Source of the DNA: Candidatus Manganitrophaceae bacterium | GTDB lineage: Bacteria > Nitrospirota > Nitrospiria > SBBL01 > JAADHI01 | Direction of reading: 5' to 3' | Length of the DNA: 35,298 bases | NCBI GenBank assembly: GCA_013151935.1 | Contig: JAADHI010000053.1 | Location: 1 to 35,298 of the forward strand | Shown here: in pieces, positions 7,146 through 34,633 of the stretch | Position numbering within the stretch: position 1 is the stretch's first letter | Layout of the letters: every line of letters begins with the position of its first letter | Notes under the pieces: generated by a model | The model's database searches: none | What the model saw: only the letters and a program-made list of their open reading frames with translations | What the model was told of the DNA's origin: nothing | Translations under genes and position numbers: made by a program

Positions 7146-7835
7146 ATGACAGTCTCTTCAGCAAAAGAAAAAACATCTCACACCGTGAAGGTTGAGATTA
7201 TGGGGAAGCAGCATTACGTCCCCGAAGGTCTGACGATGCTGCAGGCCATGTGGCACACGGGTCATGAATTGACCCGTGGTGTCGGATGCCTTGGTGGTAT
7301 TTGTGGGGCCTGTCCCTCAAAATATACAACTCCCGAAGACGCTAAAATTAAGACGGCCTTGGCTTGCCAGACCCAGGTTGAGGAGGGTATGTCGTTTTCC
7401 TTAACTGCGGCCTACTATCCCAACCGTAAAGTTGTTTCTGATTTCAAAAAAATGGAAGATCCGAAACAGGAGATTTTCCGTCTTTACCCGGAAACAGCCC
7501 TTTGCCGAAACTGTGATGCCTGTACTCGGGCCTGCCCCAAGGGTATTGATGTGCGCACCGGGGTTTGGAAGGCGGCTTTTGGTCAGTTTAAAGAGGGAGC
7601 CGATCTGTTTCTTTCTTGTGTCATGTGCAGTCTTTGTGTGCCAGTTTGCATCGCCGATATTGCCCCCAACCAGGTTGGGCTTTACATGCGTCGGGCGCAG
7701 GGGATCTTTTTTAATGAAAAGTCCAGTCATCTTTTGGCCCGTTTGGAAGAGATTGAGCAGGGCAAGTTTGATGCAGAATGGGAGCAGCTTTTAAGTCTAT
7801 CGGACGAGGCCATTATCTCTAAATCCTTGGCTTAA
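7146..7835 (+). CDS. Fumarate reductase/succinate dehydrogenase-type iron-sulfur subunit (N-terminal 2Fe-2S-like + C-terminal 4Fe-4S domains), copy 1
   Basis: GVGCLGGICGACP, CRNCDACTRACPKGID and CVMCSLCVPVC motifs. Confidence 0.8.
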   Translation: MTVSSAKEKTSHTVKVEIMGKQHYVPEGLTMLQAMWHTGHELTRGVGCLGGICGACPSKYTTPEDAKIKTALACQTQVEEGMSFSLTAAYYPNRKVVSDFKKMEDPKQEIFRLYPETALCRNCDACTRACPKGIDVRTGVWKAAFGQFKEGADLFLSCVMCSLCVPVCIADIAPNQVGLYMRRAQGIFFNEKSSHLLARLEEIEQGKFDAEWEQLLSLSDEAIISKSLA

Positions 7836-8512: not shown

Positions 8513-10099
8513 ATGAATGCGTTTGAACTTTCAAAACAAGCGGTGATTGATGGACGTGAGGCCCGCAAAAAGGGAGAGATGCCACGTCTTTCAGAAGACG
8601 AAAAAAAGGCCCTTTTAAGCCGTTACCATCCTGATTTAAAAGAGGAAGCGTATACCACGATTCGCATCGGTGTGAATAAAGGCCAAAAAACCGTTCATGA
8701 GGTCGTCCGTTTGTTGGAAGGTGAGAGTCCTCTGGCCGAAAATCCTCCTGATCTGACTCCGAAACATCAAGTGGATGTGCTTGTGATTGGTGGCGGGGGT
8801 GCAGGAGCGAGTGCGGCATTGATGGCGCAGTCCGCAGGTTCAAAGGTTCTTATGTCGACCAAGTTGCGGCTTGGTGATTCAAATACGGTCATGGCCGAAG
8901 GCGGGATGCAAGTGGCCATTTCTCCCGAAGATTCACCCGTACGCCACTTTTTGGATACCCTAAAAGGGGGTCAAATGGCGAATGATCGCACACTCTTAAA
9001 AACCTTGGTTTCGGAAGGCCCGGCAAATGCGAAGTGGCTGATGGATTTGGGGGTGATGTTTGATCGGGAGGAAGATGGCAACTTAAGTATCCGATCGGGG
9101 GGCGGAAGCAGTCTGCCACGTTTGTTACGATGTAAAGATTACACGGGTCTTGAGCTGATGCGTGTCTTAAAAGATGCCGTTTTAAATGAAGACATTGAGA
9201 TCTTGGAGTTTAGTCCCGTAATCGAGTTTCTTACCGATGGTAATGGTACTTGTACGGGTGCGGTCTTAAAGGATTTGGATACCGATAAACGCATTGTGGT
9301 TCAAGCAAAAACTGTCATTTTGGCGACAGGGGGTATTGGTCGTCTTCATATTCAAGGGTTTCCCACAAGCAATCACTATGGGGCAACGGGAGATGGGCTT
9401 GTTTTGTCTTATCGTGCCGGTGCTGAGCTTAAATTTCAAGACACTTTTCAATATCATCCCACGGGCTCTATTTTTCCTGAAGCCATGGCGGGGCTGTTGG
9501 TGACCGAAGCCATCCGTTCTGTTGGTGCCCAGCTTCTGAATGTAAAGGGCGAACGTTTTGTTTATGAATTAGAAACACGCGACGCCGTGGCCTCGGCGGT
9601 TATTCGAGAATGTGAAGAAGGGCGAGGGGTTGAAACGCCTGCCGGGCGCAAAGGCGTTTGGCTGGACATGCCCTTGGTGGATGTCCTTCATGGTGAGGGG
9701 ACATTGGCAGATCATTTCCCAAATATGCTGCGGCAGTTTTCACGTTACGATATTGATATTACAAAAGCGCCTGTTTTGATTTACCCGACACTCCACTATC
9801 AAAATGGTGGGGTGAAAATTGATGTAGAGGGTGAGTCCACTTTGAAAAATCTTTTTGTGGCCGGTGAAGCCTCCGGCGGGATTCATGGTCGAAACCGCTT
9901 GATGGGTAACTCTCTGCTCGACATTGTTGTCTATGGTAGACGTGCGGGTGTGGCTGCGGCAAAAAGGGCGAGTGCCTTGGGTTTTTGTCCCTTGACGCTG
10001 AAACATCTTGAGGATTTTAAAACGCAGAAAAAGGCTGCGGGAGTCGTTTCTGAAACAGTTTCACCGATTCTTTTTCCAGATTATGTGAATAAGGGATGA
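8513..10099 (+). CDS. frdA: Fumarate reductase/succinate dehydrogenase flavoprotein subunit
   Basis: VDVLVIGGGGAGASAALMA FAD motif; QYHPTG, GERFVYE, TLHYQNGGVKID, LFVAGEASGGIHGRNRLMGNSLLDIVVYGRRAG motifs. Confidence 0.9.
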   Translation: MNAFELSKQAVIDGREARKKGEMPRLSEDEKKALLSRYHPDLKEEAYTTIRIGVNKGQKTVHEVVRLLEGESPLAENPPDLTPKHQVDVLVIGGGGAGASAALMAQSAGSKVLMSTKLRLGDSNTVMAEGGMQVAISPEDSPVRHFLDTLKGGQMANDRTLLKTLVSEGPANAKWLMDLGVMFDREEDGNLSIRSGGGSSLPRLLRCKDYTGLELMRVLKDAVLNEDIEILEFSPVIEFLTDGNGTCTGAVLKDLDTDKRIVVQAKTVILATGGIGRLHIQGFPTSNHYGATGDGLVLSYRAGAELKFQDTFQYHPTGSIFPEAMAGLLVTEAIRSVGAQLLNVKGERFVYELETRDAVASAVIRECEEGRGVETPAGRKGVWLDMPLVDVLHGEGTLADHFPNMLRQFSRYDIDITKAPVLIYPTLHYQNGGVKIDVEGESTLKNLFVAGEASGGIHGRNRLMGNSLLDIVVYGRRAGVAAAKRASALGFCPLTLKHLEDFKTQKKAAGVVSETVSPILFPDYVNKG

Positions 10100-10169
10100 T
10101 CGTGATTATCCTAAAACTAAAATCAATCTTGTGAATTGATTGACTAACCTTGAGTCCTGGGAGGAAAAG

Positions 10170-10598
10170 ATGAATTTTTTTAAGTTGTGGTTTTTTGTCG
10201 GCGTTTTGTTTTTGGTCAGCGTTTTTGTTCCCCGAGCAAATGCCGGAACCCCTTCGCCCGAAGGCGCTGAGCTCTACATCATTTCACCTAAAGACGGTGA
10301 AACGGTTTCAAAAAGTGTTACCATTCGTTTTGGTCTTAAGGGTATGGGCGTGGCCCCGGCCGGGACAGATAAAGCCAAGACTGGTCATCATCACTTGATG
10401 CTTGATGGTGAAAAACTGCCGCCGATGGATCAGCCCATGAACAAAGAAGTTGTGAAACATTTTGGCGGCGGTCAAACTGAAGTGACACTCTCTCTTTCGC
10501 CCGGAAAGCATACACTTCAGTTGATTTTAGGGGATAAGGCACATGTGCCACATAAGCCTCCTGTGGTCTCGAAGTCCATTACCATTACCGTGAAATAA
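10170..10598 (+). CDS. Secreted DUF4399-like protein (signal peptide)
   Basis: [25 protein letters not shown] signal peptide; [14 protein letters not shown] and [20 protein letters not shown] motifs; SD GGAGG upstream of ATG 10170. Confidence 0.75.
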
Positions 10599-27089: not shown

Positions 27090-27152
27090 TTATTTCTTCC
27101 TCTGCTATCGCAGGGAGTGTATACACATATTTTTTTCAAGGAGGTCACACCC

Positions 27153-28841
27153 ATTAGCGATCAGAATCCTTTTAACGCAAGTGACGATGCTTCAGCGTCC
27201 AGAGCGTCTGCTCAGCAGACCGTCCTTCAACTCATTGACCTGCTCTTGCTTGAAGTCGTGGAAGAGGGCCCTCGACTGGTCTTAGGCCGACTTAGAGAGC
27301 AAGTCCTCAGTGCCGACCTTCAGGCACAGGCGACGACAACCGAGCTCAAAAAACTCACAGAAGTCGTCAAAAAAGTGACCTCACCCGCCAATCGCATCGG
27401 TACCTTGCTCAGCTTGCCAACAAAAACAACCGCACATATCGTGGTCGGGGGCGCGGAATATTACGCAAACATCGATCCGAGACTTGAAGAGAGTGAACTC
27501 GAAGTCGGCATGCAGATCTTGGTCAATGAGGCCTTTACCGTGCTCAAAACACTCGACTATGACAAAAGTGGTGCCCTCATGAAAATTAGCGACCTATTGT
27601 CCGACGGTCGTATTCGTGTCGCACAGGAAACAGGTGCAAATTCGACCTTATTGATTCGTGCGGCAATGCTCAAAGATGAAAAGCTCAAAGTTGGCGACGA
27701 AGTCCGCACCGATGCCAGCCATCGTGTCGCTGTCGAACGTGTGGAGGCCTCGCAAAAGAAAAATTACTTTTTAGAGGAAAGCCCAACGACGACCTGGGAT
27801 GACATCGGGGGACAAAAAGAGGCCATCAAATCCATTCGAGATACCTTAGAACAACCTCTGCTTTACCCCGAACTCTACCAACGCTTTCAATACAGCCAAC
27901 CCAAAGGGTTTTTACTCTACGGGCCGCCCGGCTGCGGAAAAACACTCATCGGGAAAGCCACGGCTGCCGGCATTGTGAAACAGCTCCAAAAAGAAAAGAA
28001 AGAAAAAGTTGAAGAATATTTTCTCCACATCAAAGGCCCCGAAATCCTGAACATGTGGTTGGGTGAAAGCGAACGCATGGTGCGTGACATCTTCGCGCAA
28101 GCGCGGGAAAAGGCTAATTCTGGCTACTTGCCCGTGGTTTTTATTGATGAAGCCGAATCCATCTTAGGGACCCGACGTTCTTCGCGCACGCAAAATATCT
28201 TAAGCACCCTCGTCCCCATGTTTTGTGCCGAAATGGATGGCGTCGCCTCGCTCAAAGAAATGGTGATCATCCTGGCCTCCAACCGACCGGATCTCATTGA
28301 TCCCGCCATCCTCCGACCGGGTCGCATTGATCGAAAAATAAAAGTGGGTCGACCCGACAAAGCCTCCACTCGCGATATTTTTGCAATTTATCTCTCAGAA
28401 AAACTGCCCATCGCGCAAGATTTAGTAGATGAAGCACAGGGCGATTTAGAAAAAGCCCGTCAAATTCTGATTGAATGTTGTACAGAAGCACTCTTTCAAG
28501 ACAATGCGGAAAACAAGATGATTGAAGTACGTCTTCGTAGTAACCGACGCGAAATCCTCTATCGCAAAGACCTCGTCAACGGTGCGATTATCGCTTCCAT
28601 TGTCGAACGCGCGAAAGAAACGGCCATCAAGCGTGCCATTGCGGGAGAAGCAGAAGGTCTCAGAAAAAATGACCTACTGGATGCCTTGTCTGCCGAATAC
28701 AAAGAAGGGGAAATTCTCCCCCCCACGGGTATTCTCGAAGACTGGCTGACCCTCATTGACCACGATCCAAAAAACGTGGTGGGTATTTCTCTTTTAAATG
28801 AAGAAAAAAGATCAAACGGAATTCAGAAAAGTATTATTTAA
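27153..28841 (+). CDS. arc: Proteasomal AAA+ ATPase (ARC/Mpa-like); probable ATT start at 27153 (the track starts at GTG 27117)
   Basis: N-terminal helical region then SPANRIGTLL OB-type domain, WDDIGGQKEAIKSIRDTLEQPLLYPELY, Walker A GPPGCGKT, Walker B VVFIDEAES, second region ASNRPDLIDPAILRPGRIDRKI; upstream of dop/pup/prcBA. Confidence 0.92.
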   Translation: MSDQNPFNASDDASASRASAQQTVLQLIDLLLLEVVEEGPRLVLGRLREQVLSADLQAQATTTELKKLTEVVKKVTSPANRIGTLLSLPTKTTAHIVVGGAEYYANIDPRLEESELEVGMQILVNEAFTVLKTLDYDKSGALMKISDLLSDGRIRVAQETGANSTLLIRAAMLKDEKLKVGDEVRTDASHRVAVERVEASQKKNYFLEESPTTTWDDIGGQKEAIKSIRDTLEQPLLYPELYQRFQYSQPKGFLLYGPPGCGKTLIGKATAAGIVKQLQKEKKEKVEEYFLHIKGPEILNMWLGESERMVRDIFAQAREKANSGYLPVVFIDEAESILGTRRSSRTQNILSTLVPMFCAEMDGVASLKEMVIILASNRPDLIDPAILRPGRIDRKIKVGRPDKASTRDIFAIYLSEKLPIAQDLVDEAQGDLEKARQILIECCTEALFQDNAENKMIEVRLRSNRREILYRKDLVNGAIIASIVERAKETAIKRAIAGEAEGLRKNDLLDALSAEYKEGEILPPTGILEDWLTLIDHDPKNVVGISLLNEEKRSNGIQKSII

Positions 28842-30434: not shown

Positions 30435-30448
30435 TAAGGAGAAAAATC

Positions 30449-30616
30449 ATGCAATTTGAACGACGTGAAAAACCGATGGATCCCATTGAGAAACCGCGGG
30501 AAGAAGGTGGGCCGAAAAAACCGGATACGGATAGTTCCCGGGATAAACTGCTTAAACGGATGCGAAAGGTTGACCCGAAACAAAGTGAAAAATACCGACA
30601 ACGCACCGGGGAATAA
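30449..30616 (+). CDS. ubact: Pup/UBact-family ubiquitin-like protein modifier, 55 aa (not in the supplied ORF track)
   Basis: MQFERREKPMDPIEKPREEGGPKKPDTDSSRDKLLKRMRKVDPKQSEKYRQRTGE; SD AAGGAG 7 nt before ATG; lies between dop and prcB, as pup does in actinobacteria. Confidence 0.93.
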   Translation: MQFERREKPMDPIEKPREEGGPKKPDTDSSRDKLLKRMRKVDPKQSEKYRQRTGE

Positions 30617-30635
30617 CTCAGGAGATGTAGAAATA

Positions 30636-31427
30636 ATGATAGCCGGAAACTTTTTAGACTTACTCAAACAAGAACACAGCCCTTTTGTTTCAGCGCCGAA
30701 TCTGCTTCACACCGCTCCTGCTTCGACGCAAACGGCTCTGACTTCTGCGACAACCATCCTGGCCTTTAAATATCGGGAGGGTCTGCTCATTGCGGGAGAT
30801 CGTCGTGCAACCGCAGGCAATATGGTGATGTTCGACCGGGCCGATAAAGTCATCGATATCGACCGTCATTCTGTGATGGCGATCGCAGGTTCACCCGCGA
30901 CCGCTTTTGAGATGGCCCGCGTGCTCTCACACAGTTTTCAATATTATCGCCGTAGCCAATTGCAGGATCTCTCTCTTGAAGGCAAAGTCCGTGCGCTCTC
31001 CAGACTGCTCAAAGAAAATGTCCCGGCGGCTGTGCAGGGCATCGGCACTGTTGTCCCGATTTTTGTGGCTTATGATCCTGAGAATGCTCAAAAACACATC
31101 TATTTCTACGATATGCTCGGTGCTGAATTTGAAGTGGTCGATTTTGCGACGACCGGTTCCGGTTCCCCAGGAATTCGCGGCGTTTTGCACTTTTACAATC
31201 GTTGGAATTCCGAACCGATCTCGGCGCTTTCTCAAGACGATGCCGTGGTCTTGGCCATGCGTCTGCTCGAAACAGCGGCGGAACATGATTCGGCCACGGG
31301 GGGGATTAAAACAGCGGCTCAGGTCTTTCCGACCGTCAAAACCATCACGGAAGAAGGGGTTCGCTCCCTGTCCTTAGCCAATCTAAAATCTTTGTACCAT
31401 GAGAAAGTAGAGAATCGCCATGTTTGA
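30636..31427 (+). CDS. prcB: 20S proteasome beta subunit; start at ATG 30636, not 30456
   Basis: TTILAFKYREGLLIAGDRRATAGNMVMFDRADKVI with catalytic N-terminal Thr after propeptide; SD GGAG at 30621-30624. Confidence 0.95.
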   Translation: MIAGNFLDLLKQEHSPFVSAPNLLHTAPASTQTALTSATTILAFKYREGLLIAGDRRATAGNMVMFDRADKVIDIDRHSVMAIAGSPATAFEMARVLSHSFQYYRRSQLQDLSLEGKVRALSRLLKENVPAAVQGIGTVVPIFVAYDPENAQKHIYFYDMLGAEFEVVDFATTGSGSPGIRGVLHFYNRWNSEPISALSQDDAVVLAMRLLETAAEHDSATGGIKTAAQVFPTVKTITEEGVRSLSLANLKSLYHEKVENRHV

Positions 31428-32157
31428 AGAACCCTACCGCTGGGCCGAAGCCGTCTCCAATAGACGTGAGTATTTGGAAGACCAACTGCAATCAGGAAGC
31501 CCCGTCGTTGCCCTCCCCTGTATTGAGGGAATTTTGTTGCTCTCCGTCTCGGCCGGGACACAAAAAGTCTATGAGATCTATGACCGCGTTGCTTTGGGTG
31601 CACTGGGTCATCCGGCTGATGTCGAACGACTCAGAAACATCGTCATCGACATGGCCCACCTCGAAGGTTTTAATCGCTCTCCCTCAGATGTGAGTGCGCG
31701 CCGTCTGGTTCAATTCGGCTTGGCCCCCCCTGTCAAACAAGCCTTTGAAGAAATTGGACGCGCCCCCTATATTGCACGCCTCTTGATTGCCGAGTTGGGT
31801 AAAGATCAAAGCCGCATCTTCTACAGTCTCAACTACGATGGTGTTTTTAAAGAGACCCACACAGGCCTCGTGCTTGCAACACCGGGCGAGGCCACCGAAC
31901 GTTGTGAATCCGCATTGAAAAATTGTGAGGGACTTGAAAACCGTGCAATGTCTGAGGTCTTTGGCGAAGCCTTCAAACTCTGGGGTCTTGCCGAAGTGGC
32001 AGAGGACAGCCGTGAAAGTCATCTTCGAGACGTGCTCAAAGATCGGGAAATTGAAGCCATGCTGCTCTCAGAAAGTGTGCCCGGCCCATGTAAAGTGCGC
32101 CCATTATCCAAAACAGAAATGATGACCTTCTCTCAGCCTTGGAGAGCACCTGCATGA
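31420..32157 (+). CDS. prcA: 20S proteasome alpha subunit
   Basis: Overlaps the prcB stop by 8 nt; PrcA-like fold and order; EEPYRWAEAVSNRREYLEDQLQSGSPVVAL... matches actinobacterial-type alpha subunit layout. Confidence 0.9.
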   Translation: MFEEPYRWAEAVSNRREYLEDQLQSGSPVVALPCIEGILLLSVSAGTQKVYEIYDRVALGALGHPADVERLRNIVIDMAHLEGFNRSPSDVSARRLVQFGLAPPVKQAFEEIGRAPYIARLLIAELGKDQSRIFYSLNYDGVFKETHTGLVLATPGEATERCESALKNCEGLENRAMSEVFGEAFKLWGLAEVAEDSRESHLRDVLKDREIEAMLLSESVPGPCKVRPLSKTEMMTFSQPWRAPA

Positions 32158-33566
32158 GACCGCCTCATCTCTTCGGCATCGAAACGGAATACGGTCTTCT
32201 GCATACGGATATGAATGATCCTCATGCCGCCGAGCGTCTTTCGCATGGAGTCAGGGATCATCTTTTTGATAAAAAGCGCGTGGGTCTACTCGACATGCAT
32301 CATCGTGCCCACGACGAACCCGCCGGAAACGGCGGGTTTTTATTAAATGGCGGTCGGTTTTACATCGACATGGGGCATGTCGAATACGCCACACCGGAAT
32401 GTACGCGTCTCAGCGAATTGGTGGCTTTCAATCGCGCAGGCGACCTGCTCTTGCATCAAAGTTTAGACGAAATGGGGTTGCTTGAGTCTGCGAGTTTCAT
32501 CAAAAACAACATTGATTACGAAACCGGTGCCACCTTCGGTGCGCATGAAAATTACTTGGTTTCCCGTGATTTTCCCTTTACACAAGAAGGTCTCGCACAG
32601 CTTGTGCCTTTTTTAACCACCCGCCAAATCTTCAGTGGCACCGGAAGGCTCGGTGCCAATTTTGTGCCGGAAGGTTTTGTCGCCCTGGGAGATGCAAAAT
32701 TCCCGGACATTCCCTTCCAAATTTCACAACGTGCCGATCACATTGTCAGCGACCTCTACCAATGGGTCCAGTTCAGTCGTGCCATTATCAATACCCGCGA
32801 TGAACCCCTGGCCGATCCAGAACGTTTTCGCCGGATGCATTTGTTACTGGGAGATTCCAATCTCTGCGAATATGCCACCGCCCTAAAAATCGGCACCACG
32901 GCGCTTGTGCTCGACCTCATTCACGAAGGTCTGGCCCCGATACTCGATCTGCTTGAACCTGTGATGGCCCTCAAAATCATTTCACGTGATCCCACCCGCC
33001 GCTGGAAGATCCGATTATTGGACGGCAGGGAAACAAGGGCCCTCGACATACAACGCGCTTATTTAGAGGCCGCTAAGAAGTACCTTGCGGGAGAAAATGA
33101 TGACACCGATTGGACACTTCAAGCCTGGGAAACCATGCTGAACGATCTGGAAAAGAACGATGTCGAAGTCTTGGTCGGTCGGGTGGATTGGGCCTCTAAA
33201 TTGAGCTTGTTCACACAATTCAAAGAGAGCGAAAATTTAGACTGGCAAGACCCCTGGCTCAAGAGCCTCGACCTGGAGTATCACAACCTGGATCCGGAAC
33301 GGGGCCTCTACCTCGCCCTTGAAAGTGAAGGCAAGATCGCACGCTTGAGCACGGATGAGGCCATCCAACAAGCCACTACAATGCCACCGGTGGCAAGCCG
33401 GGCCGCTGGTCGGGCCTACCTCATTCGCAAACTCATGGAAAAACCCGCGCCCTACGTCATTAACTGGGCTTCTTTCTATCTCGAAAAAGACGTGCTCGGC
33501 ACCACAGACCCCTTTAAAAACTACCTCAAAGAAGCCAAGGCGATGTGGGAAAATCAGAGCATATAA
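32154..33566 (+). CDS. pafA: Pup/UBact ligase (PafA-like); start at ATG 32154, overlapping the prcA stop as ATGA
   Basis: HLFGIETEYGLLHTD; GGRFYIDMGHVEYATPECTRLSELVAFNRAGD; lacks the Dop loop; GGAG upstream of ATG. Confidence 0.88.
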   Translation: MRPPHLFGIETEYGLLHTDMNDPHAAERLSHGVRDHLFDKKRVGLLDMHHRAHDEPAGNGGFLLNGGRFYIDMGHVEYATPECTRLSELVAFNRAGDLLLHQSLDEMGLLESASFIKNNIDYETGATFGAHENYLVSRDFPFTQEGLAQLVPFLTTRQIFSGTGRLGANFVPEGFVALGDAKFPDIPFQISQRADHIVSDLYQWVQFSRAIINTRDEPLADPERFRRMHLLLGDSNLCEYATALKIGTTALVLDLIHEGLAPILDLLEPVMALKIISRDPTRRWKIRLLDGRETRALDIQRAYLEAAKKYLAGENDDTDWTLQAWETMLNDLEKNDVEVLVGRVDWASKLSLFTQFKESENLDWQDPWLKSLDLEYHNLDPERGLYLALESEGKIARLSTDEAIQQATTMPPVASRAAGRAYLIRKLMEKPAPYVINWASFYLEKDVLGTTDPFKNYLKEAKAMWENQSI

Positions 33567-33687: not shown

Positions 33688-33748
33688 GGAATGATAGAAC
33701 ACACCCATACATTGACTGACTTTTCCTTATTCGGGTTTGGATTCCAAA

Positions 33749-34633
33749 ATGTTTCCTTCCGCTCTCTGTACAAAAACAGCACTTCTATTGGTTTCCAGGT
33801 TTCATTTCACGCTCGTCGTGACATCGCCGATTTATCTTCCCAAAAACAAAGGTGCAACACTCCGTGGCGGTTTTGGCAATGCCTTAAAAGCCGTCTGCTG
33901 TACTGTCCCGCATACGGCTTGTTCTGATTGTCCCCGCTTTAGGGTCTGTGCCTATCCCACGCTTTTTGAGACGCCCCTCCCCATTGCCGCAACACGCATG
34001 GTAAAAGGAAATGCGATACCACGTCCCTTTGTCATCGAACCGCCCCTTGGGGAAAAAATGTGTTATGCGCCGGGAGATGTGATGACCCTTTCGCTGGTTT
34101 TGATCGGAAAAGCCAGTGCATCCCTGCCGTATTTTGTTCGGGCTTTTGAGGTCTTGGGAAAAGAGGGACTCGGAATGGGGCGAGGGCATTTTAAGGTCGA
34201 GACCGTTCAGTTGCTAGAGACCGAAAAAGAACCTGTAGTGGAATGCCAAAACATCACCCTTCATTTTTTGACACCGACCCGGATTGTTGTAAAGGGTCAG
34301 GCAAAAAAAGACCTCGACTTTCCCCTTCTATTTCGCACCCTGCTTCGCCGCATCGAAAATTTAAGGGCTTTTCATGGGGTGAATCATGACGGGGCACTCG
34401 ACCCGCCCGTACATGCCGAGGCGGTTCAAGTTATTTCAAGCAGCTTAAAGTGGATTGAGCAGGAACGTTATTCCAGTCGACAAAAGCAAAACATGCCACA
34501 AGACGGCTTTGTGGGAAAAATCAGCTTTGAAGGAAATCTCGGGTCATTTTTACCTTATTTGAGCTTGGGCGAATTAGTGCATGTCGGGAAAGGTGCCACT
34601 TTTGGTATGGGGCGGTTTGAGATCAATACTTAA
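33749..34633 (+). CDS. cas6: Cas6-like CRISPR pre-crRNA endoribonuclease (RAMP family)
   Basis: RGGFGNALKAVCC....C.DCPRFRVCAYPTLFE N-terminal motif, and the C-terminal glycine-rich RAMP signature LGELVHVGKGATFGMGRFEI. Confidence 0.82.
   Translation: MFPSALCTKTALLLVSRFHFTLVVTSPIYLPKNKGATLRGGFGNALKAVCCTVPHTACSDCPRFRVCAYPTLFETPLPIAATRMVKGNAIPRPFVIEPPLGEKMCYAPGDVMTLSLVLIGKASASLPYFVRAFEVLGKEGLGMGRGHFKVETVQLLETEKEPVVECQNITLHFLTPTRIVVKGQAKKDLDFPLLFRTLLRRIENLRAFHGVNHDGALDPPVHAEAVQVISSSLKWIEQERYSSRQKQNMPQDGFVGKISFEGNLGSFLPYLSLGELVHVGKGATFGMGRFEINT

Follow-up and report, generated by a model that had tools for sequence, protein, structure and literature searches.

A UBact gene between dop and prcB in a Candidatus Manganitrophaceae genome that also carries a Pup operon

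The contig analysed here (the window, 35,298 nt) holds a short reading frame between the genes for a Dop-type enzyme and a proteasome beta subunit, and the preliminary description had taken its product for a modifier of the Pup/UBact type. This raises the question of which tag, if any, the frame encodes and how such a tag would be used. We identify the gene as UBact with high confidence. Less expected was that this genome, like most of the class, also carries a complete Pup operon besides that of UBact. Taken together, the data make it very probable that UBact is a Pup-like modifier with its own conjugation-degradation pathway, probably insulated from the Pup pathway beside it. Table 1 lists the features discussed below.

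Table 1. Features of the UBact locus in the window and the Pup operon of the source genome (last row)
Feature	Location	Strand	Basis and remarks
UBact-type proteasomal AAA ATPase (Mpa/ARC family)	27117..28841	+	profiles; ends in KSII, not GQYL
Dop_U, depupylase-type enzyme with Dop-loop	28887..30434	+	profiles, alignment, tree
UBact Shine-Dalgarno sequence AAGGAG	30436..30441	+	7 nt 5' of ATG 30449
UBact, 55-aa ubiquitin-like modifier	30449..30616	+	translation, Pfam and NCBIfam profiles, AlphaFold2 model
PrcB_U, 20S proteasome beta subunit	30636..31427	+	profiles; predicted catalytic Thr39 after propeptide
PrcA_U, 20S proteasome alpha subunit, divergent	31420..32157	+	pocket Lys present; basic residue at R26-equivalent site absent
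PafA_U, putative UBact ligase	32154..33566	+	without Dop-loop; catalytic Asp present
Pup operon, ATPase-Dop-Pup-PrcB-PrcA-PafA	G000 contig C27, L101:12-6490	-	complete; Pup ends KGGE

The frame runs from ATG to TAA and translates to MQFERREKPMDPIEKPREEGGPKKPDTDSSRDKLLKRMRKVDPKQSEKYRQRTGE, exactly as quoted in the preliminary description, which was also right about the Gly-Glu tail and about the ribosome-binding site of its own; this site lies just 3' of the dop stop. The protein ends in QRTGE, which fits the short-protein end R-[TS]-G-[EQ] and is like the end found in relatives; comparable Shine-Dalgarno sites lie 5' of most UBact starts there. It scored 63.9 bits against the Pfam UBact family (PF20513; cut-off 27.8, E 1.1e-17) and 67.6 bits against the NCBIfam UBact equivalog (NF033388; cut-off 35, E 7.9e-19). 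The Pup families (PF05639, TIGR03687) gave no match to the frame in Pfam and NCBIfam with E up to 1, and the only PF05639 match of the genome sits on contig C27. Pup identity is thus excluded by the profiles, and of the two kinds of modifier that had been suggested it is UBact that the scores support. The profile search found a single UBact in the source genome and none in any of the 14 control genomes.

We then have to ask if the short frame might be open by chance, the true coding frame being the longer ORF at 30456-31427. The two frames do overlap, and the longer one is mechanically open; it is present in the six-frame list in another frame, as had been described, and is prcB over-extended upstream; the gene's true start, ATG 30636, is preceded by a separate AGGAG. 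This upstream extension is not common to relatives, as its open length varies and it is absent in several. We collected 80 related loci with the window's Dop as query (Nitrospirota, Poribacteria, Latescibacterota, Armatimonadota and others). A UBact ORF occupies the dop-prcB slot in 76 of them; two loci end 5' of the slot, and in the remaining two (L080, L081) the slot holds a classic Pup ending ...EENAEEFVKNYVQ[KR]GGQ. Against the nearest relative (L002) we counted 27.5 synonymous differences over 34.8 sites (pS 0.79, saturated) and 11.5 nonsynonymous differences over 130.2 sites (pN 0.09); the UBact frame is under strong purifying selection. A chance ORF is already refuted by conservation and substitution pattern, with the UBact E-values and the Shine-Dalgarno site also standing against it, and we regard its probability as practically nil. 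The preliminary description had named as its undoing a lack of profile matches together with a lack of frame conservation or synonymous bias; matches, conservation and bias were all found. It had also called the gene hidden, which is valid only for a length-filtered ORF list because public profile libraries recognise it.

Across the relatives the C-terminal half of the aligned UBact proteins is near-invariant, with GE at the C-terminus in 68 and GQ in 11; the invariant columns include R5, P22, M38, Y49, Q51, R52 and G54. The closest UBact that we found is 87% identical to that of the window, which represents another Nitrospirota lineage. The first description of UBact, from Gram-negative bacteria, reportedly dates from 2017, and to our knowledge its conjugation has so far been proposed from sequence alone. 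The window protein resembles this family (PF20513; NF033388) in profile score, length of 55 aa, RTGE end, dop-prcB slot and partner genes, and we found no difference in kind. UBact is therefore an already known family, of which the window gene is a further sequence. Additional copies were encountered in some places. An Armatimonadetes contig carries a second, divergent UBact-like ORF directly 3' of the normal one (L077:7682-7879), ending VMERMRRVKPDMARHYKQRPGQ. In a Nitrospira contig (L010) the UBact operon is partly duplicated, with UBact present twice (7533-7727 and 10079-10273) beside truncated copies of the enzymes, and a single-contig genome shows a weak second UBact-like match of 24 bits, below the cut-off (G066:C1:1039871-1040017).

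The AlphaFold2 model of UBact (pLDDT 73) displays a loose N-terminus followed by helices at 28-39 and 45-53, a two-helix arrangement of low confidence (pTM 0.25). Pup forms two helices on Dop and PafA, and the modelled C-terminal helix pair of UBact resembles these (PMC8599861; PMC5286830). The structure search found no solved structural relative of UBact itself.

The genes around UBact form a tight operon in the order ATPase-Dop-UBact-PrcB-PrcA-PafA, which is the order of the actinobacterial Pup system (PafA, Dop, Mpa/ARC, PrcAB). The two systems have related enzymes, ATPases and 20S subunits, the partner enzymes being of the Pup_ligase family, and a disordered tag ending in G-[EQ]; in L080 and L081 classic Pup fills the very slot of UBact. 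Just 3' of pafA the window has a Cas6-family gene (33737-34633). The ATPase is predicted to have an N-terminal helical arm (23-46/50-88), a double OB and an AAA domain. The ATPase, Dop, PrcB, PrcA and PafA of the window each score below their NCBIfam cut-offs. PafA_U reached 329.9 bits against the PafA equivalog TIGR03686 (cut-off 551.3) and 320.1 bits against the Dop model, nearly its PafA score, and its best PDB matches are Dops. Since the Dop-loop is absent and the gene is placed in this operon, we infer that PafA_U is the UBact ligase. Where a locus extends far enough to include them, proteasome core genes almost always adjoin UBact, and UBact probably labels proteins for destruction, as the parallel with Pup suggests. 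It might instead be a signalling tag that alters its targets but does not lead to their degradation, a role proposed for pupylation in those actinobacteria that retain it although they have no proteasome (PMC3511204); given the adjoining core genes, we consider this very unlikely.

Searched with the Pup profile, the source genome yielded a single classic Pup, outside the window, in the operon on contig C27. All six products of that operon score above their NCBIfam cut-offs, and its partner proteins are 27-44% identical to those of the window. Its total is four genes of the Pup_ligase family, two for proteasomal ATPases and five of the proteasome family; the fifth of these last, alone on contig C61, is probably HslV. 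A binning artefact is an unlikely source of the second operon because both tags occur in 14 single-contig genomes and the C27 enzymes group with those of their own genus. We searched 147 genomes of the class Nitrospiria with the UBact and Pup profiles. UBact was present in 103 and Pup in 142 of them: 100 genomes carry both tags, 3 only UBact, 42 only Pup and 2 neither. Genomes with both tags mostly have four Pup_ligase genes and Pup-only genomes mostly two; among the both-tag genomes tested, most have two ATPases and two core pairs. Outside the class, both tags were detected in all five Poribacteria tested, and UBact without Pup in all 12 tested genomes from Latescibacterota, Armatimonadota and others. 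At three loci (L110, L117 and L119, families f6 and f13) the Pup gene stands apart from Dop and proteasome genes, with none within the 16 kb fetched.

Two tag systems in one cell could share their components. The same enzymes, ATPases and cores would then serve both UBact and Pup, with UBact conjugated and the second operon acting as a back-up or regulatory copy. Some likenesses point this way. The systems have a common ancestor (Dop_U and Dop_P are 44% identical), and both tags end in Y-x-Q-[KR]-x-G-[EQ]. However, the helical half of UBact is basic and that of Pup acidic. The net charge of the last 30 residues ranges from +1 to +7 for UBact (mean +4.5, 93 rows) and from -6 to -10 for Pup (mean -6.9, 25 rows), and these ranges do not overlap. 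The same holds for the ATPase tails: the 76 UBact-type ATPases all lack the docking tyrosine of GxYx and end in [IV][IV], as with KSII in the window, whereas all ten Pup-type ATPases end in G[HQ]YL. A motif of the latter type docks Mpa on the proteasome core (PMC8755798). In the core pocket a conserved lysine meets the regulator's carboxylate and a conserved arginine stacks on its tyrosine, as described for Bpa, which has the same motif (PMC6466877). This carboxylate-binding lysine is kept in both types of PrcA (84/84 UBact-type, 14/14 Pup-type), which again would suit shared use. The site of the pocket arginine, which we take to be Mtb R26, carries R or K in 14/14 Pup-type PrcA and in only 5/84 of the UBact type. 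UBact-type Dop and PafA show matched charge reversals: at 18 alignment columns the charge has changed the same way in both enzymes, in 12 of them towards acidic, and 15 of the columns fall within residues 335-413 of A. cellulolyticus Dop. Published positions of Pup groove residues were not found in the literature search; the changes in these columns would fit a groove that meets a basic tag but could also reflect shared ancestry. The ATPase arms do not simply complement the tags in net charge (mean arm charge -0.45 for the UBact type and -1.9 for the Pup type). Finally, a tree of 74 sequences separates Dop_U, PafA_U, Dop_P and PafA_P into four groups without any mixing of clades. Overall we consider shared use of the components unlikely, and these signatures suggest two insulated tag-proteasome pathways in one cell.

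The tree pairs the enzymes by system: Dop_U stands next to PafA_U, and Dop_P next to PafA_P. A constraint holding all Dops together was worse (p-AU 0.043), also with the loop columns removed and actinobacterial rows added (p-AU 0.010), and a single old Dop/PafA split common to both systems is thus disfavoured, for a grouping chosen after inspection of the tree and with long branches present. Both Dop_U and PafA_U keep the active-site Asp in the alignment. The alpha-loop of PafA and its one-residue insertion after the catalytic Asp were not encountered in the window PafA_U; the Nitrospirota PafA_U show Dop-like spacing at this site (DMGHVEY) and an alpha-loop unlike that of PafA. Dop can be converted to a ligase by mutations and loop removal (PMC7947786). 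Given the post-hoc grouping and the long branches on one side, and the Dop-like features and this precedent on the other, we treat a separate origin of the UBact ligase as a lead and not as a result. Only tentatively do we suggest the wider scenario in which most Nitrospiria run complete Pup and UBact pathways side by side, insulated from each other through the reversed charge of the tags and a re-matched docking of ATPase and core. In this scenario the UBact ligase and depupylase also diverged from each other independently of the Pup pair; either ligase and hydrolase may have separated on two occasions, or a depupylase may have given rise to the UBact ligase.

In the pathway that we propose for UBact, PafA_U would activate the side chain of the C-terminal Glu and link it to lysines in the targets. 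As UBact already ends in Glu, it would not have to be deamidated first. Dop_U would take UBact off its targets. The helical C-terminal half of the tag may dock on the helical arms at the N-terminus of the UBact-type ATPase; the ATPase would thread the disordered N-terminus of the tag and pass the substrate on to the PrcA_U/PrcB_U core. This route would be insulated from that of Pup by the charge of the tag, by matching surfaces on the enzymes and by a distinct docking of ATPase and core.

The proteasome subunits of armatimonadetes, nitrospirae and verrucomicrobia have been set apart from the actinobacterial ones (PMC5666114), and this Gram-negative subcluster parallels the split between UBact and Pup types observed here. 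A term search of that paper gave no mention of Pup or UBact, so two tags per genome are not treated there. We also found no description of Pup and UBact coexisting in one genome in the literature searched, to which the original UBact paper did not belong. Genomes with both tags allow two homologous systems with defined sequence differences to be compared within one cell. These differences should decide the matching of tag, ligase, depupylase, ATPase and core, and tagging specificity becomes directly testable. If the tree is right, the UBact ligase would be a natural case of the change from depupylase to ligase that has been made by mutation (PMC7947786). What now calls for an explanation is the retention of two tag pathways by so many Nitrospiria, and the way in which these are kept apart.
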